Below, one piece after another: positions 2,645 to 36,897 of a DNA stretch of 37,027 nucleotides. The position numbers and the translations under genes were made by a program. The stretch's first letter is position 1. The number at the start of each line of letters is the position of its first letter. Below the pieces are notes generated by a model. That model was not told where the DNA came from, ran no database searches, and saw only the letters and a program-made list of their open reading frames with translations. This stretch comes from an uncultured Bacteroidia bacterium (GTDB lineage Bacteria; Bacteroidota; Bacteroidia; Bacteroidales; F082), in assembly GCA_902802535.1 (NCBI GenBank), contig CADCML010000018.1, forward strand, positions 1 through 37,027, given 5' to 3'.

Positions 2645-4585
2645 TTATATCTTATCCATCTCCGAGTCATCCTCAATCCTCAGGTTGTCAATGATAAACC
2701 GCTGGCGTTCCATGGTGTTTTTGCCCATGTAGTATTCAAGCAGTTCCTTGATGCCAAAGTCGTAGCGCAAAATGACCGGCTCAAGGCGCATGTTGGGGCC
2801 GATGAAGCCACGGAACTCGTCGGGGGAGATTTCGCCCAAGCCTTTGAATCGCGTAATTTCGGCTTGCTTGCCGCATTTCTCCTTGGCGGCTGTGCGCTCC
2901 TCGTCGCTGTAGCAATAATATGTCTCCTTCTTGTTGCGCACGCGGAACAAAGGCGTCTGTAAGATATAGACGTGACCGTTGCGCACAAGGTCAGGATAGA
3001 ACTGGAGGAAGAAGGTGAGCATCAGCAGGCGGATGTGCATACCGTCCACATCGGCATCGGTGGCGATGACGATGTTGTTGTAACGCAGGTTCTCAATGTC
3101 CTCGTCGATGTTCAGGGCGGCTTGCAAGAGGTTGAACTCTTCGTTCTCGTAGCACACTTTCTTGGTCATTCCCAAGCAGTTGAGTGGCTTGCCGCGCAGG
3201 CTGAACACGGCTTGGGTCTGCACGTCGCGGCTCTTGGTGATGCTTCCCGATGCGGAGTCGCCCTCGGTGATGAAGATGGTGCTTTCTAAGCGTTTCTCGT
3301 GGTTGGTGTTGAGGTGGATGCGGCAATCGCGGAGCTTGCGGTTGTTCAGGCTTACCTTCTTCGCGCTCTCGCGGGCGGCTTTCTTGATACCGGCAATCTC
3401 CTTGCGTTCCTTCTCGTTGGCTTGGATTTTGGCCTGCAAAACGCTGACGGTTTCAGGGTTCTTGTGCAGGTAGTTGTCCAAATGACGCTTCAGGATGTCG
3501 AAGACGTAAGTCTTTAAGAAAGGACTGTCGTTGGTGCCGTCAGGGTTGTTGGGCGCGAGGTGGGTGGAGCCGAGTTTAGTCTTCGTTTGTGCCTCAAAAA
3601 CAGGCTCTTGTATGCGGACGCACAAGGCACAAATCAGGCCTTGGCGGATGTCGGCAGGCTCGTATTCCTTTTGGTAGAACTCGCGCACCACGCGGGCATA
3701 GCCTTCGCGGAAAGCCGACTGGTGTGTGCCGCCTTCGGTGGTGTGCTGACCATTGACAAACGAATAGAAATAGTCGCTCGATTGCCCGTTGACATGGGTG
3801 AAAGCGGCTTCAAAGTCGCCGTCCTTGATGTGGATGATGGGGTAGAGGCCTTCGCCTTCCATATTGTTTTGCAAAAGGTCTAAAAGTCCGTTCTTGGAGT
3901 AATAGCGTTTGTCGTTGTAAATCAGGCTCAAACCACGATTGAGGTAGGCATAATTCCAAACACGTTTCTCGATGTATTCATCAACATAGTGGTAGTTGCC
4001 GAACAGAGCGGAATCAGGGATGAACTCGGTCAGAGTGCCTGTATCACCATCGGAAGGGATGATGCCAGAATCACTCACCAATTTACCTTGTGAAAACTCC
4101 ACAATTCTCGTCTTGCCTTCACGAATGGCCTGCACCTTGAAATAAGACGAAAGCGCGTTGACGGCCTTAGTACCGACGCCGTTCAAGCCGACCGACTTCT
4201 GGAATACCTTGCTGTCGTATTTTGCGCCCGTGTTGAGTTGCGAAACGGCTTCCTTCAGCTTGCCAAGCGGGATGCCCCGTCCATAGTCGCGGATACTGAC
4301 CTTCTTTTCCACCTTGTTGACGGTCACCTCGATTTTCCTGCCGAAGCCCGAAGTGAACTCGTCGATGGAGTTGTCAATCACCTCTTTGATAAGCACATAG
4401 ATGCCGTCGTCCTGCGAGGCACCGTCGCCGAGTTTGCCGATGTACATGCCCGGGCGGCGACGAATGTGCTCCATGTCCTCCAGATGTACGATGCTGTCGT
4501 CGTTATAGTTTTCGGTGGTTGGTGCTGGGTCTTCGCTCTGCGTGAAGATGTCGTCTTGCAGTTCGTCTTTGATTTCGTTGTCCAT
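2645..4585 (-). CDS. parE: DNA topoisomerase IV subunit B (ParE)
   Basis: This 646-residue type IIA topoisomerase B subunit provides the ATPase half of the enzyme that decatenates chromosomes with ParC. Visible motifs are the GHKL ATPase site (EVIDNSIDE, with Glu68 as general base and Asn72; DYGRGIP at 100-106; [14 protein letters not shown] near 133) and the TOPRIM site ([25 protein letters not shown]). The ending [19 protein letters not shown] is more typical of Bacteroidota ParE than of GyrB. No parC is nearby. The last codons are duplicated at 1259-1363, so the 3' end may have been replaced during an integration. Confidence 0.9.
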
Positions 4586-4619: not shown

Positions 4620-5903
4620 TCAAATAAAACCTTTAATTTCTGTTCTAACCCACTCCCAATCTTCACGATTCGGGACCAATTGCCCCAATCGACTTCCAGT
4701 TTGCTTGTGGAACACAAACCACTGATAAACAAACAAAGCTGAATAAGTCAATGAAGTGGTGATGGCTGCGCCTCGGATGCCTAACCAAGGAATCAATACA
4801 AATGCCGCTATCAGCGTGACACTGAGGCCGATGAGTGAGGCGTAAAGGTTGTATTTCGGTCGTCCAGTGCCAGAAAAATAGTTGGCCAAAATGGTGTGTG
4901 CGGAAAAGAAAACGATACCGGGTGCCATCAGCAAAATGACGGTGCGGATGTTGCTGAACTCACCTGAGAAAACCCACTCGAAGAACGAAGTCGGCAGCAA
5001 ACAAATAACCAACAAAGCACTGAAAGTCAGTAGTATGGAGAGCTTCATGAAACGCAAGGTGAGTTGTGAGGCGCGTTGCTTGTTTTCGGTGTTGCTCAAA
5101 GCAGAAAACGCCACCAAACCGATGCTTTGCCCGACGATGTTCACGCCTTCAGTGACTTGCGTTCCTGAGGCATAGACGCCAATTTGCTGCTCGGTGCAGT
5201 TTGTGCGTAACAGATAGACACTCAGTCGCTTGTTGAGCGTGCTGACCAAAGTGGAGAGTTGCAGGAAAGCCCCATAATGCAGCATTTCCTTGAGGCTGTC
5301 TTTCAGCGGCTCGCCGCCTTCACGTTTCAATGTGGGGAAGAGGAACCCCCAGCCGATGAGTGTTGCCAGACTGTAGCCGCAAAGTTGGGAATATAGCAAG
5401 GCTTTGGCGGTTCTCAAATTCAAGGCGAAAATCAAGACAGCCATCATCGTGACTTGGGTAAGTATCTGCGTGATAAACAGCCAGTTATAGGTTGCCACTT
5501 TCTCTTTCCCAAGGAAATGGTTGAGGTTGAACTCGTGCAGGCTGTAGATGAAAGTCATTAGCAGGACGAGCCAGGCATAGCCTTCGGGGACAATGTTGTG
5601 ATAGAACTCAGGGAAGAAATGTAATATGTTGAACAACAGTAGATAAACCAACATTACGAAGGCAATCCAACCGTAGGAAAGTTTCATCAGTGTGGCGAGT
5701 TTCTTGCGTGGCGTGAAATACACCAATCCGCTGCCAGCAATGAGTTCTATACCTATTAATAAAAAGGTGATGTCGGTTTGTGCGATGAAGGCCTTGCCCC
5801 ATTCGGCGGCACCGAGGCATTTGGTGCCCATGATGAGCGTAGCCATCTGCGTTAGCACATTGATGGCCCTTGCCGCACCCGTTCCGAGGATTTTCTTGAA
5901 CAC
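4620..5903 (-). CDS. Polysaccharide/oligosaccharide flippase (MOP superfamily)
   Basis: The 427-residue protein is almost entirely hydrophobic, with about 12 predicted membrane segments, as expected for Wzx-type flippases that move lipid-linked sugars across the inner membrane. Typical features are the N-terminal KKILGTGAARAINVLTQM segment, a GVYASGTQVTEGVNIVGQSIG block mid-protein, and YFSGTGRPKYNLYASLIG followed by WLGIRGAAI in the last third. There is no glycosyltransferase cluster around it, so its substrate cannot be read from context. It precedes parE by 34 bp and is divergent from the PQQ gene. Confidence 0.85.
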   Translation of the reverse strand: MFKKILGTGAARAINVLTQMATLIMGTKCLGAAEWGKAFIAQTDITFLLIGIELIAGSGLVYFTPRKKLATLMKLSYGWIAFVMLVYLLLFNILHFFPEFYHNIVPEGYAWLVLLMTFIYSLHEFNLNHFLGKEKVATYNWLFITQILTQVTMMAVLIFALNLRTAKALLYSQLCGYSLATLIGWGFLFPTLKREGGEPLKDSLKEMLHYGAFLQLSTLVSTLNKRLSVYLLRTNCTEQQIGVYASGTQVTEGVNIVGQSIGLVAFSALSNTENKQRASQLTLRFMKLSILLTFSALLVICLLPTSFFEWVFSGEFSNIRTVILLMAPGIVFFSAHTILANYFSGTGRPKYNLYASLIGLSVTLIAAFVLIPWLGIRGAAITTSLTYSALFVYQWFVFHKQTGSRLGQLVPNREDWEWVRTEIKGFI

Positions 5904-15413: not shown

Positions 15414-15521
15414 AATCCCCCGTCTTTCGGACACCCCCTTAAAAGGGGGACACCTGCCGGACGTATTTTCTTCCCCGCGTCGCTTTGCGCGTCCCCCTCT
15501 TGAGGGGGGCAGGGGGGAGTC
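15414..15521. repeat. Two C5/G5 palindromic repeats
   Basis: The 160-bp gap between galK and the T9SS gene holds two copies of a repeat family that also occurs in the mobile element. One (15414-15452) reads on the minus strand like the copy at 34041-34077: CCCCCTTTTAAGGGGG, then GGGGGATT. The other (about 15491-15521) reads CCCCCTCTTGAGGGGGG and ends GGGGGGAGTC. Confidence 0.85.
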
Positions 15522-29582: not shown

Positions 29583-30917
29583 ATGTCTACTGAAAAAAGA
29601 AAAATCGAACCGATTTTTGTCGAAATTATCGACGGAATCACGGTTTCAGCCATCTGGAACCTCAAAAATCAGAGCAAAAAAGACTATCAACCCGTCTCTG
29701 TGAGGGTGAATTGCAACCGCGAACGCTGGTATTACCCCACCGGTTACCGCGTTTCCTTCGAAGATTACGAGGCAATCCGCACCGCTTCCGGCGCAAAAAA
29801 CCCCAGAGCCATCGCCCGTGCCACCATCAAACAGCACTTCGATGACGTGTGTCTTACCATCCGTCGCCTCATCCGCGAGGAAGACTTCACCCTCTCCAAC
29901 CTGGCCGAGGCCATGAAGCTCCCCATCAAGCGCGATGTCGGCTTCACCTTATTAGAATACTGGACCACCTTCGGCGAGGGCAAGAAGTCGCCAAAGACCC
30001 AAGAGCAATATCGTTGCGCAGCGCGCAGCTTCTATCGCGCCATGGGTTGTCACCTGGTCCCCATCAAGGACGAGTTCGGCAAAGACACCTTTAAGAAGAC
30101 CATCGTGGGCAAGCCCACCAAGATGAAGCCCGCCGAAGCCACTGCCGCTGTCGTCGCAAGGTGGGAGCAGTTCATGGACGAGGAATGCCTGTCGGCATCC
30201 ACCAAGAGCATCTATCTCCGTGCCTTCCGTGCCGTGATGAACAGCCTAGTCAAAGAGAAGGCCATCACCAAGCGCCCCGAGTTGACCATCAAGGCGGGTG
30301 CCCGTCGCAAGCAGGATTTCCTCACCGTCCCCGACATCATCAAAATCCGCGACTATGACGGCCCTTCCAAGCTCGCCGCTGATTGGTGGATCATCCTCTA
30401 TCTCTGCAATGGCTCCAACCTGAAGGACATCGCCTCGCTGCAGTGGTCTGAAGATGCCATCTATGGCACGGAGTTCAGCTATGTCCGCGCCAAGATTGAG
30501 AACAAGGTGCCTGTCGTCGTCAACATCCCCATCACCGCCCCGCTCCGCGAGTTGCTCAACAAGTACGCATCCGCTCCCAATCTGGGCTCCCGTGTCTTCC
30601 CGCAAATCCTTTTGGATGCCGAGACACCGCAGCAGATTGACTATCGCGTCCACGACTTCAACCGCCAAATCCGACTGGGCATGCAAAACGTATGTGCTGA
30701 GCTGGGCATCCGCCCAGTCACCGCATCCACCGCGCGTAATTCCTATATTACGACGCTCACCTGGCACGGCATTTCCGATGCCTTCATCGACTCCATGGTC
30801 GGCCATGTCGACTCCAAGAATGTCCTCCGTGGCTATCAAGGCGTCATCAGTCCGAAGAAGAGGATGAAGCTCAACGATCTCCTCTTCGTCGACCCGGAGA
30901 GCGAATCCGAAGAGTAA
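29583..30917 (+). CDS. Tyrosine recombinase (integrase) of the element
   Basis: The 444-residue protein has an N-terminal arm-binding part, a SAM-like core-binding domain (~120-240) and a C-terminal catalytic domain. Recognisable sites are Arg385 in STARNSY, His408 in MVGHVDS and the nucleophile Tyr418 in RGYQG. The first catalytic Arg position reads CNGSNLKDIASLQW, so Asn stands where Arg is usual, and the HxxR His is Ser382. Such changes are seen among Bacteroidota integrases. It lies beside the tRNA fragment it probably recognises and ends in a strong terminator. Confidence 0.92.
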   Translation: MSTEKRKIEPIFVEIIDGITVSAIWNLKNQSKKDYQPVSVRVNCNRERWYYPTGYRVSFEDYEAIRTASGAKNPRAIARATIKQHFDDVCLTIRRLIREEDFTLSNLAEAMKLPIKRDVGFTLLEYWTTFGEGKKSPKTQEQYRCAARSFYRAMGCHLVPIKDEFGKDTFKKTIVGKPTKMKPAEATAAVVARWEQFMDEECLSASTKSIYLRAFRAVMNSLVKEKAITKRPELTIKAGARRKQDFLTVPDIIKIRDYDGPSKLAADWWIILYLCNGSNLKDIASLQWSEDAIYGTEFSYVRAKIENKVPVVVNIPITAPLRELLNKYASAPNLGSRVFPQILLDAETPQQIDYRVHDFNRQIRLGMQNVCAELGIRPVTASTARNSYITTLTWHGISDAFIDSMVGHVDSKNVLRGYQGVISPKKRMKLNDLLFVDPESESEE

Positions 30918-32461: not shown

Positions 32462-32854
32462 ATGATCCAACCTAACGAAATCCAAACCCTCGAACAGCTA
32501 CCCAAGGCCGTGTTCAAGTTGTTCCGAGAGATTGACGATGTGAAGTATCTCATCAGGAACATGATCCAACAAAACGAGCAGTCCGCCGACCGCTGGATGA
32601 ATGTGGACCAGCTCATCGAGTACCTGCCTGGCAAGCCCTCAAAGCAAACTGTCTATTGTTGGGTAAACAATGCCACCATCCCGCACCACAAGCCCAGCCA
32701 AGGCCGTCTCGCTTTCCGCAAGTCGGAAATCGACAAATGGCTTGGCATTGAAACACTGGTTTACAACAGCGACCTTGATGATGAGGACAACAAGCCGCTG
32801 CTCCCCAAGTCCGCTTGTGGTACCACCATCAGCAGGAAAGGAGGCTACAAATGA
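32462..32854 (+). CDS. Helix-turn-helix (excisionase/MerR-like) protein 1
   Basis: The 130-residue protein has a helical N-terminus (~1-40) and a winged helix-turn-helix region (MNVDQLIEYLPGKPSKQTV, then YCWVNNATIPHHKP and LAFRKSEIDKWL), the layout of excisionase-type DNA-binding proteins. It probably helps excision or regulates the element. Its stop overlaps the next start by four bases (ATGA). Confidence 0.82.
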   Translation: MIQPNEIQTLEQLPKAVFKLFREIDDVKYLIRNMIQQNEQSADRWMNVDQLIEYLPGKPSKQTVYCWVNNATIPHHKPSQGRLAFRKSEIDKWLGIETLVYNSDLDDEDNKPLLPKSACGTTISRKGGYK

Positions 32855-33123
32855 AGACACAGAAGCAGAACGGCAAGCCGCTGCCTAAGCGATGCCAAAA
32901 GTTCATCCACCTGAACCATCCCAACCTCTCCGGCATCTGGCTCGACTCAGGCGATGTCATGCGCCTTCTCCATTGCAGCGAACGCACCCTTCAAACGCTC
33001 CGCAATGCTGGCCTTCCTTATTATTCCGTCCATCAACGCCTCTTCCTCTACAAGCTGGATGAGATCCAGGCCTTCGTCGAAGAACGCAAAAACCAAAGCA
33101 ATGAAAGGACCAGCAATGTTTAA
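32851..33123 (+). CDS. Helix-turn-helix (excisionase-like) protein 2
   Basis: A longer frame starts at 32815, but the ATG at 32851 forms the ATGA overlap with the previous gene and is preferred, giving 90 residues. The core WLDSGDVMRLLHCSERTLQ, then LPYYSVHQRLFLYKLDEI, is a HTH_17-type DNA-binding domain. It is related in fold to its neighbour but not a close copy. The end overlaps the next gene by at least 8 bases. Confidence 0.82.
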   Translation: MKTQKQNGKPLPKRCQKFIHLNHPNLSGIWLDSGDVMRLLHCSERTLQTLRNAGLPYYSVHQRLFLYKLDEIQAFVEERKNQSNERTSNV

Positions 33124-33691
33124 CGACTTTTCTTATTTCCGTGCTCCCATCACCAACACGGTGCCACATTCCGCTTTCTCCCTGTTGGATGCCTACCACT
33201 ACATCACAGGTGGCATTGCCAAGGAAACCACGGCTCACCTTCGCACGTTGTCAGGCAAGGCGCACTCCGTCTACAAACAAAACTCCTTCGACTACTGCAC
33301 CTTCTCGGGCATCTTCTCCACGCGGCACAATGGCGATTTGCTTCGCCATTCCAGCCTGGTCTGCTTCGACTTCGACCATCTTCCCAATGTCGAAGACACC
33401 TTCAAACTGCTCCTGAAAGACAAATACTTTCCGACGCTGCTGCTCTTCCGCAGCCCGTCCGGCGACGGCCTGAAATGGGTCATCTCCATGGAGCGGCAAT
33501 TTCTCTGTCGAGAGAAATTCTTCCCGCTCGAAAACCAGGTGGACTACCATCCCTCATTCTTCAAGTCGGTATCTTACTACCTCCAGAACGAATATGGCCT
33601 TACCACCGACAAATCCGGGAAGGACATCGCTCGCGCTTGTTTCCTTCCTCACGACCCCGATGCCTACATCTGTGAAAAGATCCTACAATGA
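33116..33691 (+). CDS. VirE_N (BT4734-like) primase-polymerase-like protein
   Basis: Two starts fit: ATG 33101 (MKGPAMFND) and ATG 33116 (MFNDFSYF); either overlaps the upstream gene. With the second the protein has 191 residues. The family marks are a central LVCFDFDHLPN acidic pair and, later, LLFRSPSGDGLKWV, as in archaeo-eukaryotic-type primase folds. It probably supplies the priming part of the element's replication, with the ATPase in the next gene. Its stop overlaps the next start by four bases (ATGA). Confidence 0.85.
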   Translation: MFNDFSYFRAPITNTVPHSAFSLLDAYHYITGGIAKETTAHLRTLSGKAHSVYKQNSFDYCTFSGIFSTRHNGDLLRHSSLVCFDFDHLPNVEDTFKLLLKDKYFPTLLLFRSPSGDGLKWVISMERQFLCREKFFPLENQVDYHPSFFKSVSYYLQNEYGLTTDKSGKDIARACFLPHDPDAYICEKILQ

Positions 33692-35697
33692 GCAACCCAC
33701 GCAAATCCTCCGACAGCACCAAAGATGCCGTCGAAGCCCTGACCATCCTCATCGAGTCGCAGGGCATCGACATCACGGCCAACTACTCCGACTGGCTCCG
33801 CATCGCTTTCGCTCTCGTCGATGAGTTCGGTCTCGACGGTGAATCCTATTTTCACCGCATTTCGGCCTTCTATCCCAACTACTCCCACGAAGCCGCTTCC
33901 CAGCAATACATCCATTGCCTCCAGAGTGCATATCCCCCTCTGAGAGGGGGTGGCCACAGGCCGGGGGAGTCAGGCAAGTCCCGTGTCACCATCGCCACGC
34001 TCTTCTACATCGCCAAAAACCACGGCATCAACTTGCCATGTCCCCCTTTTAAGGGGGTGCCCGAAGGGCGGGGGATTCTTCCCCCTCTGAGAGGGGGTGG
34101 CCATTTCCCCCTTCAAAGGGGGCTAGGGGGATTGCCGGGGGAGTCAGTCCCGCGTCTCGCGTCTCGAAGTCTCGCGTCCTCAACCCAACCAGTTGAGGAA
34201 TTTGAGGAATATGAGGAAAACTTCTCTGGGCTCGCGGACGGCTCGTCCGCCCACAGGCTTGCGGACGGCCCGTCCGCATACAATCTTGCAGACGGCTCGT
34301 CCGCACATCTTAAATCCTTGCCAACCTTCTCCCAATCCATCCACGAAAACCTTCCGCTCATCATGCAGCGCGTCATCGCTGACTCGCATTCGGATGAGGA
34401 TGCCGACATCCTCATCCTCGGCTCGCTTACGGTGATTTCCGCTTGCACTCCTAATGTCTACGGGGTCTACGACCGTCGCCCTGTCCACGCCAATCTGTTC
34501 CTCTACGTCACCGCTCCTGCATCGGCTGGCAAAGGACGGCTCTCCCTGTGCCGTCATCTCGCTGAGCCGTTGCATCAGTACCTCCGCGACAAGTACAAGC
34601 GCGACATGCAGAAGTACAACGAAGAGCTGGCCGCTTACGCGGTCAACAAAAAGACGTCTTTGGCTGTGCAGCCAAAGGAACCGCCTTTTCTCTCGTTGAT
34701 CATCCCGGCCAACAGCACCGCCACAGTCGTCTATCAAACCCTCTCCGAAAACGACGGCGTAGGCCTTCTTTTCGAGACCGAGGGTGACACTCTGGCCAAC
34801 GCTTTCAACTCCGACCTGGGCAACTACTCCGACGGCTTCCGCAAAGCGTTTCACCACGAAACGATTTCCTATCTCCGCAAGAAAGATCACGAGTATGTCG
34901 AAATCCTCAGGCCAAAGTTTTCCGCTGTGCTGTCAGGCACTCGTCAGCAGATTTACAGCCTCATCCCCAACGCTGAAAACGGCCTGTTCAGCCGTTTCAT
35001 CTTCTATTCCATGCAAACCGAGCTGGTTTGGCGTGATATGTTTCCCACCATCGACGGTGCCACCGCCGATGAGCGTTTCCGCCAAATCGGTAAAGACTTC
35101 TACACCTTCCTGAAGGACTTCCCCAAAGATGATGTCCAATTCACCCTCAGCTACACACAAAAGCAGCGTTTCAACGACTTCTTCGCTGAAACGCAGCGCA
35201 GCTATGCCTACTCCTTCGGCGACGACATCGTGGCCTCTGTCCGTCGCCTCGGCCTCATCCTCTTCCGGATAGCGATGATCCTTTCAGTCCTTCGCCTCAT
35301 GGACTCCTTTCCCGCAGCTTCAAAAACCGCTCCGCTCTCCGAAGTCAAAAAGTCGAAGCGCATTGTCTGCACCGACATCGACTTCCAGTCTGCCCTTGAC
35401 ATTGTCAAGGTGCTTCTCCTTCACACCGTCGAAGTGTACCAATCCCTTCCACGGCATTCTTACGAACGCCTGGCCACCATCGCGCCCAAGGGCTCGCGTC
35501 AGCTTGCCGAGGCATCGCGTTCACGCTTCCTAGAAGCACTTCCAAAGGCCTTCGACCGTCCCACCTACATCGAAGTCGCAGCATCGCTCAACATCACCGA
35601 CAAAACCGCTGAGCGTTACATCCGTGAGTTCTGTACCTCTGGCCAGCTCGACCATCCTTCCAATGGCCAGTACCTCAAGACCTCATCGCGGGCTTGA
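33688..35697 (+). CDS. PriCT-2/DUF3987 helicase-like ATPase with repeat-derived linker
   Basis: The 669-residue protein opens with a PriCT-2-like domain (YSDWLRIAFALVDEFG, SYFHRISAFYP, then VTIATLFYIAKNHGI at ~99-113). From about residue 212 it is a DUF3987 domain with a P-loop, APASAGKGRLS, near 276, and SGTRQQIYSLI and NGLFSRFIFY blocks typical of the family. Residues ~82-208 are largely made of genomic palindromic repeats read in frame. The C-terminal 90 residues look like a winged helix (VAASLNITDKTAERYIREF). The stop codon itself lies in a 24-bp tandem repeat. It probably drives element replication together with the VirE_N protein. Confidence 0.88.
   Translation: MSNPRKSSDSTKDAVEALTILIESQGIDITANYSDWLRIAFALVDEFGLDGESYFHRISAFYPNYSHEAASQQYIHCLQSAYPPLRGGGHRPGESGKSRVTIATLFYIAKNHGINLPCPPFKGVPEGRGILPPLRGGGHFPLQRGLGGLPGESVPRLASRSLASSTQPVEEFEEYEENFSGLADGSSAHRLADGPSAYNLADGSSAHLKSLPTFSQSIHENLPLIMQRVIADSHSDEDADILILGSLTVISACTPNVYGVYDRRPVHANLFLYVTAPASAGKGRLSLCRHLAEPLHQYLRDKYKRDMQKYNEELAAYAVNKKTSLAVQPKEPPFLSLIIPANSTATVVYQTLSENDGVGLLFETEGDTLANAFNSDLGNYSDGFRKAFHHETISYLRKKDHEYVEILRPKFSAVLSGTRQQIYSLIPNAENGLFSRFIFYSMQTELVWRDMFPTIDGATADERFRQIGKDFYTFLKDFPKDDVQFTLSYTQKQRFNDFFAETQRSYAYSFGDDIVASVRRLGLILFRIAMILSVLRLMDSFPAASKTAPLSEVKKSKRIVCTDIDFQSALDIVKVLLLHTVEVYQSLPRHSYERLATIAPKGSRQLAEASRSRFLEALPKAFDRPTYIEVAASLNITDKTAERYIREFCTSGQLDHPSNGQYLKTSSRA
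33933..34311 (+). repeat. In-frame repeat cassette within the DUF3987 gene
   Basis: Copy 1 (33933-33971) and copy 3 (34080-34145) share CCCCCTCTGAGAGGGGGTGG and GGGGGAGTC; copy 2 (34041-34077) is CCCCCTTTTAAGGGGG-type ending GGGGGATT; copy 4 (34105-34133) is a CCCCCTTCAAAGGGGG-type unit lying inside copy 3. Next come GTCTCG words (34148-34180), a GAGGAA-rich stretch (34194-34220) and three 27-bp units (34231-34311) around GCGGACGGCTCGTCCGC, coding for LADGSSAHR-like nonapeptides. None contains a stop in this frame. Confidence 0.92.
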
Positions 35698-35760
35698 CCC
35701 GCGACCTCATCGCGGGCTTGATCCGCCACCTCATCGCGGGCTTGACCCGCGACCTCATCC
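35681..35760 (+). repeat. Three 24-bp tandem units over the DUF3987 stop
   Basis: Units start at 35681, 35705 and 35729 with a partial fourth. Each contains TCGCGGG-cttga-CCCGCGA (7-bp stem, 5-base loop). The stop codon of the DUF3987 gene (35695-35697) falls in the first unit. A further copy is at 36771-36794. Confidence 0.9.
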
Positions 35761-35799: not shown

Positions 35800-36123
35800 A
35801 TGATTTACACCATCTTTCTCAGCACCTTCTCGATGCCAGCCTACGCGGCCATTCATCCCATAGTGATAAAGTCCCATGTCATCAAACGCAAATTATTATT
35901 TGTCGCTTATCACTGCACCATTACAACCCGTAAAGGCCCTGAACTATACAACAAGCTGCTCTCAGCCTTCCAAGAAGCCGGCATCCCCAAAGGTGCCTAT
36001 AAAATCAGAATTGAACCACCTTTAGACCCCCAAAAGGGCAGTAACGACAATCATGGGACTGCTCCCCGTGTAAAGTACAGTAGGCCACCCATATCCCCCT
36101 CTGAAATCGAAGATTCGACGTAG
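35800..36123 (+). CDS. Small unknown protein A (107 residues)
   Basis: The family is not recognised. Residues ~14-75 (AYAAIHPIVIKSHVI, AYHCTITT, YNKLLSAFQEAGIPKGAYKI) match the small protein at 36352 position by position, so the two are probably tandem paralogues. The first 16 residues are hydrophobic (MIYTIFLSTFSMPAYAA) and could be mistaken for a signal peptide, but they align with the paralogue's first strand. The last ~10 residues (ISPSEIEDST) and the stop come from a palindromic repeat that has replaced the native end. Confidence 0.6.
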   Translation: MIYTIFLSTFSMPAYAAIHPIVIKSHVIKRKLLFVAYHCTITTRKGPELYNKLLSAFQEAGIPKGAYKIRIEPPLDPQKGSNDNHGTAPRVKYSRPPISPSEIEDST

Positions 36124-36156
36124 TCAAAGGGGGTGCCGCAAAGCGGCGGGGGAGTC
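36094..36156. repeat. C5/G5 palindromic repeat with enlarged loop
   Basis: Same family as the copy at 33933 (CCCCCTCTGA, AAAGGGGGTG, then GGGGGAGTC), but the hairpin loop carries about 19 extra bases including TCGAAGATTCGA. It supplies the stop of the preceding gene. Confidence 0.8.
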
Positions 36157-36178
36157 AAGTTCACAATCCAATGACTCC

Positions 36179-36271: not shown

Positions 36272-36310
36272 TCCCCCTCTGAGAGGGGGTGGCCGCAGGC
36301 CGGGGGAGTC
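36272..36310. repeat. C5/G5 palindromic repeat, near-identical to 33933-33971
   Basis: The 39-base unit differs from the in-gene copy at 33933-33971 by one base (GGCCGCAGG here, GGCCACAGG there). It lies just before the second small unknown protein. Confidence 0.9.
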
Positions 36311-36351: not shown

Positions 36352-36585
36352 ATGAAAGCAATCATCCTCATCGAAACCCACACCATCTCCGCCTACCGCG
36401 CCATCCGTCCCGCCGTCGTTGCCTCCAATGTCGGCACCTTCGGCGTGTCCGGCCTTACCATTTCGGCCACCATCAAACAGTCAGACTATGCCTACCTCGT
36501 CGATGTCGTCAACCATGCTGCGCAAAGCGCAGGCATCCCTCGCGACGAGTACGACATCAAGACCGTGCACGCCATTTCAAGATGA
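36352..36585 (+). CDS. Small unknown protein B (77 residues), paralogue of A
   Basis: A longer frame starts at 36289 inside a repeat; the ATG at 36352 is preferred because MKAIILIETHTISAYRA aligns with the start of protein A. Shared positions include AYxAIxP, a central strand and AGIPxxxYxI near the end. No domain is recognised. Size and beta-alpha-like pattern would suit a small binding or toxin/antitoxin-type protein, but nothing supports a definite role. It ends just before a strong hairpin terminator. Confidence 0.65.
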   Translation: MKAIILIETHTISAYRAIRPAVVASNVGTFGVSGLTISATIKQSDYAYLVDVVNHAAQSAGIPRDEYDIKTVHAISR

Positions 36586-36897
36586 CAAAAAGCCCCGCCA
36601 TCCTTCCCCCTTCAAAGGAGGTCAGGATGGCGAGGCTTTCCTCATTTCCTCATTCCTCACTCACGTTTTTCGTGAGGAAATAACAACAGCAGTGGAGTCC
36701 TCCCTCCTTGAAGGGGCCAATGGGATTCCGTCGTTAGCACGTTAGTACGTCAGTACGCATAACGAGACCCCCTCATCGCGGGCTTGACCCGCGATCTCAC
36801 TCCCAACTAACAACTCCCAACTCAACACTCCCCACTTCCCCCTTTGTAAAGGGGGCCTGGGGGATTAACTCTAAACTCTAAACTCTAAACACTAAAC
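36586..36897. other. Repeat-filled gap without a gene
   Basis: The 312-bp gap between two opposing genes holds a terminator (36589-36639), degenerate CCTCC/GGGG palindrome remnants (about 36699-36727), ACGTTAGTACGTCAGTACG words (36730-36757), a TCGCGGG/CCCGCGA unit (36771-36794), a CCCCCTTTGTAAAGGGGG unit ending GGGGGATT (36836-36866) and AACTCTA heptamers (36867-36899). No open frame here looks real. Confidence 0.75.
36589..36639. terminator. Terminator with 15-bp stem
   Basis: AAAGCCCCGCCATCC (36589-36603) pairs with GGATGGCGAGGCTTT (36625-36639) with one mismatch. The loop contains a CCCCCTTCAAAGGAGG palindrome of the repeat family, so the hairpin may have arisen around a repeat. Confidence 0.8.

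Follow-up and report, generated by a model that had tools for sequence, protein, structure and literature searches.

Non-coding repeats that have entered reading frames, and origins placed in or beside replication genes, have been described in several systems. The Rickettsia palindromic elements (RPEs; Ogata et al. 2000/2002, summarised in PMC10969869) are palindromes of about 150 bp that have entered unrelated genes in frame and that the encoded proteins tolerate. The intragenic repetitive extragenic palindromes (REPs) of the GTAG and CGTC families are 20–40 bp palindromes found in open reading frames (ORFs), singly or in clusters coding for 43–82 amino acid residues. Replication and repair genes and tRNA synthetases are among their hosts, and the same account already proposed that linkers tolerate intragenic REPs (PMC3733652). 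In phage lambda the iterons of the origin lie in the middle of gene O, and additional iterons make the protein 13 residues longer (PMC7466680). The alpha protein of satellite P4 is a fused primase-helicase (PMC7145576), and the minimal set of the PICMI satellites consists of an integrase, AlpA (PF12728 being allowed) and a DUF3987 primase, the word iteron being absent from the main text of that report (PMC10803314). The present study concerns a 37,027-nt stretch of DNA from an uncultured Bacteroidia bacterium (the window; contig CADCML010000018.1 of assembly GCA_902802535.1) and, within it, the PriCT-2/DUF3987 primase-helicase gene of a small integrative element, which comprises an integrase, two HTH_17 proteins and a split primase-helicase.

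Two kinds of DNA would have written the disordered linker that joins the PriCT-2 part to the MCM-like DUF3987 helicase. On the sequence comparisons given below, the reading which we favour, with a probability of roughly 0.6, is that of mobile palindromes together with the origin-type iterons of a mobile replicon, with one iteron array lying inside the coding linker. The palindromes, which are short, belong to several families and also occur between genes, would insert and be kept where their length and frame leave the protein readable, the tolerated sites being loops, linkers or tethers, and their retention would reflect neutral tolerance. The second kind is an array in which a single inverted 7-bp unit is joined by three to four direct ones, with an inverted partner downstream. 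The arrays may be iterons to which an initiator of the element itself binds, perhaps the DUF3987 protein through its C-terminal domain, and both arrays would form a two-site origin active on the excised element. The array is conserved at the DNA level, is paired, has matched unit variants and recurs elsewhere in the same layout with other units; the palindromes are derived, nested, polymorphic between near relatives and present in several unrelated genes.

The linker array was found via a hairpin scan and consists of TCCTCA, a spacer and three or four TGAGGAA units, mostly at 9-nt spacing; owing to the 9-bp step, the linker protein contains tripeptide repeats (EEx, AET, FAK, FAD). In 57 aligned rows, EE pairs were encoded as GAG-GAA in 95 of 101 cases in the linkers versus 22 of 76 outside the linkers of these genes, the Fisher value of 9e-21 being indicative only, since the rows are related and relatedness inflates the counts. 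The units cross reading frames in loci L025 (EEMRNEE) and L033 (EEVRK). De novo, 44 of 49 homologues showed repeated 6-mers within the linker and one of 49 showed them in the remaining gene sequence, the top unit in the window and in its near relative L007 being GCGGAC, a mobile palindrome, and the self-match of the linkers peaked at lag 9 (0.385, compared with 0.290 for the remaining gene sequence; 48 rows). The codon order of the array is fixed at the DNA level, for which protein conservation is no explanation. Thus, repeated units under DNA-level constraint, as expected of intragenic iterons, were found in this replication gene. In the window's own genome the pattern TGAGGAN{1,4}TGAGGA occurred at six places, four of them within the two arrays, against three for the reversed-pattern control. 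A third TTCCTCA/TGAGGAA array of this genome was seen at position 2257 of L080 (G000:C100; G and C denote genomes and contigs); downstream of it, at a distance of about 200 nt, follows a TPR lipoprotein ORF.

In clade 1 (29 rows, support 100/100) the linker array was present at the same spot in all 29 rows. An inverted array was found behind the gene in 24 of the 25 rows of this clade whose downstream sequence extended over 1.2 kb or more when it was sought anywhere in the available flank, and in 21 of the 25 within 1.2 kb; in all of these 21 the third base of the units was equal at both sites. GCGGA was found at both sites in L212 and L215, for which two separate changes are needed on the tree, and GAGGAT units were found at both sites in L211, L216, L224 and L225. 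Homologues with less than 1.2 kb downstream (L010, L247, L016 and L050) were left out of the pairing count, and the near-duplicates L044, L054 and L039 were dropped in some counts. These unit-based counts replaced a generic alignment of linker and downstream sequence with a mismatched-partner control, which was weak (rank 0 in 4/44, rank ≤2 in 9/44) because close relatives share units and the mobile palindromes match too. That all linker repeats, the TGAGGAA array included, are neutral debris and the array is one more dispersed repeat seems improbable: several unrelated repeat families do collect in the linker and in other tolerant sites, and three distinct arrays of this kind were found outside DUF3987 loci in 617 kb, but in its own genome the tandem pattern is almost confined to the element, the array keeps one position and a fixed codon order throughout clade 1, and its unit changes jointly with the downstream copy.

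The same layout was found with other units outside the genus. In g16, another genus of the same family, the linker of L255 (protein TDFADFADFA) and an inverted copy directly after the last codon agreed in 32 of 32 bases, with GACTTTGCA units, and in L256, L257 and L258 the linker carried TTTGCAAAG units (FAKFAKFA), with an inverted copy not more than 16 nt from the last codon. In these four loci the downstream copy was followed by a stretch of 66–80% A+T (58–61% in the loci as a whole) and by more units. Among viral contigs, in which five relatives were found and three examined without a mismatch control, a pair was seen in one, L264 (34% identity), with TGGGACA units at 3964–3995 and inverted at 5307–5338, the gene being frameshifted. 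Since these short hairpin-associated units, which occur inside a primase-helicase gene and again behind it, change completely and yet together, they are best taken for iterons recognised by a common protein. The pairing and covariation show a shared binding partner and not its purpose, HTH_17 proteins are encoded adjacent to the gene and the window has no obvious A+T-rich tract, so that a functional DNA site other than an origin (autoregulation operators, copy-number handcuffing, an excision or transfer site, or a single-strand initiation hairpin) deserves some weight, although we regard it as rather unlikely: the arrays are placed in and behind the primase-helicase gene, the downstream copies of L255–L258 with their A+T-rich stretch and further units are origin-like, and lambda O offers a precedent for an origin within a gene (PMC7466680).

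Several observations weigh against paired iterons of a two-site origin. The covariation within clade 1 rests on few switches, and the swap between genera is the stronger argument. No clear A+T-rich block follows the window's gene. A downstream array was absent from L210 and lay 2.5–3.9 kb away in L009, L214 and L226, and the downstream units of L213 and L214 mix GAGGA and GGGGA, the linker containing GAGGA only. In clade 2 (same genus, 20 rows) the linkers were repetitive in 16, with a fair downstream match in at most two (L227, L233), and in L234 and L236 arrays were confined to the sequence behind the gene. Among eight loci of the family outside the genus, a pair was present in four, absent from three and had too little flank in one; no linker/downstream match was detected in L254, L260 and L262, in the distant same-genus L261 or in L019, and among the ten further loci L263 yielded no ORF and the flank of L259 was too short for pairing. 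The downstream array of the window is probably non-coding, although a 108-aa ORF starting with TTG spans it; the longest ORF over the array was shorter than 110 aa in 14 of 21 relatives and reached 321 aa in L211 and 222 aa in L225, so that the array could be coding in some rows. Finally, the frame was lost by frameshifts in the linker of two relatives (L021/L008 and L022/L011), and L071 is split in its DUF3987 part.

It is very unlikely that the gene represents a decaying copy or one that is not translated, or that the repeats stem from faulty assembly. The own genome is a metagenome-assembled genome (MAG) of 3.7 Mb with 85% completeness and 6.3% contamination, all data being MAG-based, and the three relatives just mentioned have a broken frame, but the window's frame is open, with a ratio of nonsynonymous to synonymous substitution (dN/dS) of 0.019 against L007 (552 domain codons), and insert 1 (Table 1) occurs at the identical base in another MAG (L007). 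At this dN/dS the reading frame is under selection in the window's lineage, in agreement with the suggestion of the initial annotation that selection keeps the frame open. The broken frames lie in L090/L021 (G057:C150) and L022/L247 (G138:C84), where the break is in the linker, and in L071 (G076:C8); in L090/L021 a length difference of 7 nt was seen within the linker.

Extended to DUF3987 replicons in general, the proposal falls somewhat short of even odds: these would possess a hitherto undescribed two-site origin with one iteron array in the coding linker and its inverted twin behind the gene, the arrays would change jointly and completely between lineages, the tripeptide repeats would be the shadow of a DNA site, and mobile palindromes would gather around both arrays, where the DNA would often be single-stranded or structurally permissive.

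All the palindromes which the initial annotation had described as translated in frame, at least four C5/G5 copies and three 27-bp GCGGAC palindromes, were located (C5/G5 at 33934, 34042, 34081 and 34107, one copy nested; GCGGAC units 100, 85 and 74% alike), and they encode residues 82–95, 118–154 and 181–208. As it had also proposed, the first copy splits the PriCT-2 domain (Pfam PriCT_2, residues 22–109, E 1.5e-10; DUF3987, residues 238–585, E 3.6e-54, of 669), the two CTGAGA copies are read in one frame, the third forward frame giving a CTC TGA stop, and palindromes of the same families lie elsewhere in the window (C5/G5 at 15434, 15493, 36273 and 36838). It had overlooked the nested copy, the conserved linker element, the downstream array and the location of the gene's stop codon within the palindrome GCGGGCTTGACCCGC (35688–35702). 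Hairpins covered 158 nt/kb of the linkers, a figure that includes the hairpin of the conserved array, which exceeds chance: the remaining gene sequence gave 32 and dinucleotide-shuffled linkers 10 (51 homologues, L021, L022, L061 and linkers below 60 nt being left out). The CAC on either side of the 76-nt intergenic insert is perhaps a small target-site duplication; this insert contains a further inverted repeat.

Table 1. Features of the window around the primase-helicase gene and its repeats.
Feature	Position	Strand	Remarks
PriCT-2/DUF3987 primase-helicase gene carrying the repeats	33688..35697	+	669 aa ORF
Conserved linker array: inverted TCCTCA, then three TGAGGAA units, 9-nt steps	34177..34218	+	within residues 163–178
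Downstream array, inverted relative to the linker array	36637..36681	-	51 nt past a 77-aa ORF (36352–36585)
Palindromic insert 1 (CTGAGA unit), residues 82–95, within the PriCT-2 domain	33933..33971	+	net gain 33 nt; also in L007
Palindromic insert 2 (TTTTAA unit), residues 118–130	34041..34077	+	in L008, not in L007; identical 34-mer at C56 and C77
Palindromic insert 3 (CTGAGA unit), interrupted by insert 4	34080..34148	+	both flanks match the intact unit; uninterrupted in L007
Palindromic insert 4, 30 nt, in frame, nested in insert 3	34104..34133	+	
Three 27-bp GCGGAC palindromes (LADGSSAH-type peptides)	34229..34309	+	one copy in L025–L028; none in L009, L010, L011, L016
Three GCGGGCTTGA(C/T)CCGC palindromes	35684..35757	+	first provides the gene's stop codon
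Intergenic palindromic insert, 76 nt	36086..36164	+	CAC on either side; missing from L007, L090
Full CTGAGA unit outside the gene	36272..36310	+	
Tyrosine integrase of the mobile element	29583..30917	+	Phage_int_SAM_5; PHROG integrase E 1.6e-18
HTH_17 protein, excisionase/AlpA-like	32462..32854	+	Pfam HTH_17 E 1.1e-8; PHROG excisionase and regulator E 8.7e-6
Second HTH_17 protein	32851..33123	+	Pfam E 2.5e-6
BT4734-like_N ORF, N-terminal part of the primase	32954..33691	+	Pfam E 4.9e-21 at residues 112–238; PHROG DNA primase/helicase; real start probably further inside

Comparison with relatives, the near-identical ones being MAGs of Bacteroidales/Bacteroidia, shows that the palindromes are derived insertions, because relatives show an empty site and other insertions. 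The gap at residues 82–95 anticipated by the initial annotation was found as a 33-nt empty site in seven homologues (L009, L010, L011, L012, L015, L016 and L017), which continue straight from GCC and read SA(S/P)PSGK where the window has SAYPPLRGGGHRPGESGK. The near relative L007/L020, 98% identical to the window where aligned, carries insert 3 whole, without the nested unit and without insert 2; the units present in the window and missing from L007 were the TTTTAA unit, the nested 30-nt unit and intergenic inserts of 76 and 28 nt, and therefore units come and go among near relatives. The coding length differences between both sequences were 33, 15 and 33 nt, their sum being divisible by three, and neither of the two larger intergenic differences (76 and 28 nt) was a multiple of three. 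The linkers of other homologues hold different peptides (PPLRGGGRRPGES, LADGSSAH, IAGCAPQS and VIARSAATKQS, the last, in L035, being presumably repeat-coded). The linker growth by a moving repeat that had been suggested is thus retained as regards derived units that come and go; a benefit of such growth has no support, and the inserts fit neutral tolerance in a disordered loop. Likewise, the linker was extended by accreted palindromes, except that the array between them is conserved, DNA-constrained and paired downstream.

The empty sites rule out an ancestral domain for the inserts, and for the repeat-coded region as a whole a domain conserved at the protein level is extremely improbable: an acidic EExEExEE motif recurs in many homologues, but the insert residues are missing from homologues, the motif turns into SA..AE, GET or FAK elsewhere with the DNA layout kept, and the linker has no confident predicted structure. 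In the predicted structure the local confidence score (pLDDT) was below 50 at residues 86–90, 92–98 and 122–207, with confident folds on either side; the DUF3987 protein has the MCM-like AAA+ helicase fold. No relaxase was found among the proteins scanned in or just beyond the element, although no search aimed at relaxases was made. A TPR lipoprotein gene was seen 1.7–1.9 kb behind the DUF3987 gene in G137:C25 and G082:C25 and is perhaps cargo of the element.

Insertions of the same type were found in many unrelated genes throughout the genus, a kind already described in other bacteria. When the repeats were counted genome-wide, CCCCCTN{3,9}AGGGGG occurred at 35 places in the own 3.7-Mb genome (reversed-pattern control, four), about ten of them in ORFs of recognisable proteins, including IleS and Lnt (upstream of the Lnt domain); positions were taken from this pattern, since a scan requiring arms of 7 misses some C5/G5 units. 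The 22-mer CCCCCTCTGAGAGGGGGTGGCC had 26 copies in 18 of 173 genomes of the family, all 18 in genus g1. Nineteen copies lay in ORFs of recognisable proteins, as judged by ORF and family, and seven did not, a share not above the expectation from coding density, which shows that genes are hardly avoided. These 19 fell in genes for DUF3987 proteins (eight), TPR lipoproteins (five), secreted proteins (three: L110 and L114 with a type IX secretion system (T9SS) sorting domain, L099 with Cleaved_Adhesin/fn3), SNase lipoproteins (two) and Rho (one). The unit has five open reading frames, three of which were found used in genes (PPLRGGGRRPGES, LPRPAATPSQRG and TPPACGHPLSEG). In-frame palindromes thus occur in DUF3987, Rho, IleS, SNase and secreted proteins and in TPR lipoproteins and their tethers. 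In Rho (L118/L101, G105:C12) they lie in the N-terminal linker (GEITPPPFGHPLSEGEISPTPLKGGEN), the relatives L119–L121, of 84–85% identity, being without insert, and the IleS loops (L148–L177) contain repeat-like peptides that differ among relatives, for example of the SPFAKGD and NQLSTLNPQLST types. In a paralogous TPR lipoprotein family (L178–L207), 27 of 30 loci yielded a tether behind the lipobox and 24 of these fitted the lipobox pattern; 14 of the 24 hold repeats of at least one of three palindrome families (C5/G5, CTGAGC..TCGAAGG and the SPRPSPGGEG type, the last a fuzzy pattern whose label may be wrong for L192). The T9SS proteins L110 and L114 (G102) combine palindrome-coded peptides with a VIASEAKQSS-type peptide in one protein, and L076 (G000:C71:6761-12167) has twelve C5/G5 palindromes in 5.4 kb, several about 85 nt apart. 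Mobilisation by a REP-associated tyrosine transposase (RAYT) was considered and rejected: the genome has five Y1_Tnp genes, but of the 35 C5/G5 sites, which are strict units, not one had such a gene at 1.5 kb or less, and the shortest distance, on C4, was about 7 kb.

BT4734/DUF3987 primase-helicases are spread over bacterial mobile elements, and to our knowledge no origin has been mapped for replicons of this type; in the titles and abstracts surveyed in the open-licence literature, neither DUF3987 genes containing iterons nor C5/G5 repeats within genes of Bacteroidota were described. Should the arrays prove to be origin sites, the origins of many elements could be located together by scanning for linker repeats that match downstream ones, and the units, which change and yet match, would offer a natural experiment on the coevolution of initiator and DNA site. 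The palindromes provide a Bacteroidota case, with empty sites and polymorphism between near relatives, of non-coding repeats becoming linkers and tethers, which extends to Rho and an aminoacyl-tRNA synthetase.

The palindromes resemble the Rickettsia RPEs in that units of the window's types occur in frame in the unrelated genes listed above, and differ from them in size (27–39 nt versus about 150 bp), in the stacking and nesting of several families in one linker, and in their occurrence in Bacteroidota. Unlike the GTAG/CGTC REPs, the C5/G5 units have no GTAG or CGTC end tag, the GCGGAC units holding CGTC only inside the palindrome, and unlike GTAG REPs and REPtrons with units flanking a RAYT gene, none of the 35 strict C5/G5 sites stands beside a Y1_Tnp gene. 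The integrase, AlpA/HTH_17 and DUF3987 primase are shared with PICMI, so that the gene sets are alike; PICMI, which are located next to fis and packaged by a helper phage, belong to Vibrionaceae, unlike the present element with its Bacteroidales/Bacteroidia host. Satellite P4 has two separated cis sites, ori1 and crr, which the two-site layout recalls, and the alpha protein is likewise the primase-helicase of a small integrative element, although the proteins are different. We know of no P4 site in the linker-coding part of the alpha gene and of no in-gene array in pRN1. The latter, an archaeal plasmid unlike the element described here, resembles it in having essential DNA just downstream of the replication-protein gene (PMC4234260). 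Closest in arrangement to the favoured reading is lambda O, with an iteron-type array in the middle of a replication-protein gene (PMC7466680); the candidate array described here differs in having a different initiator, a second, inverted array downstream, and a protein that is part of a primase-helicase.

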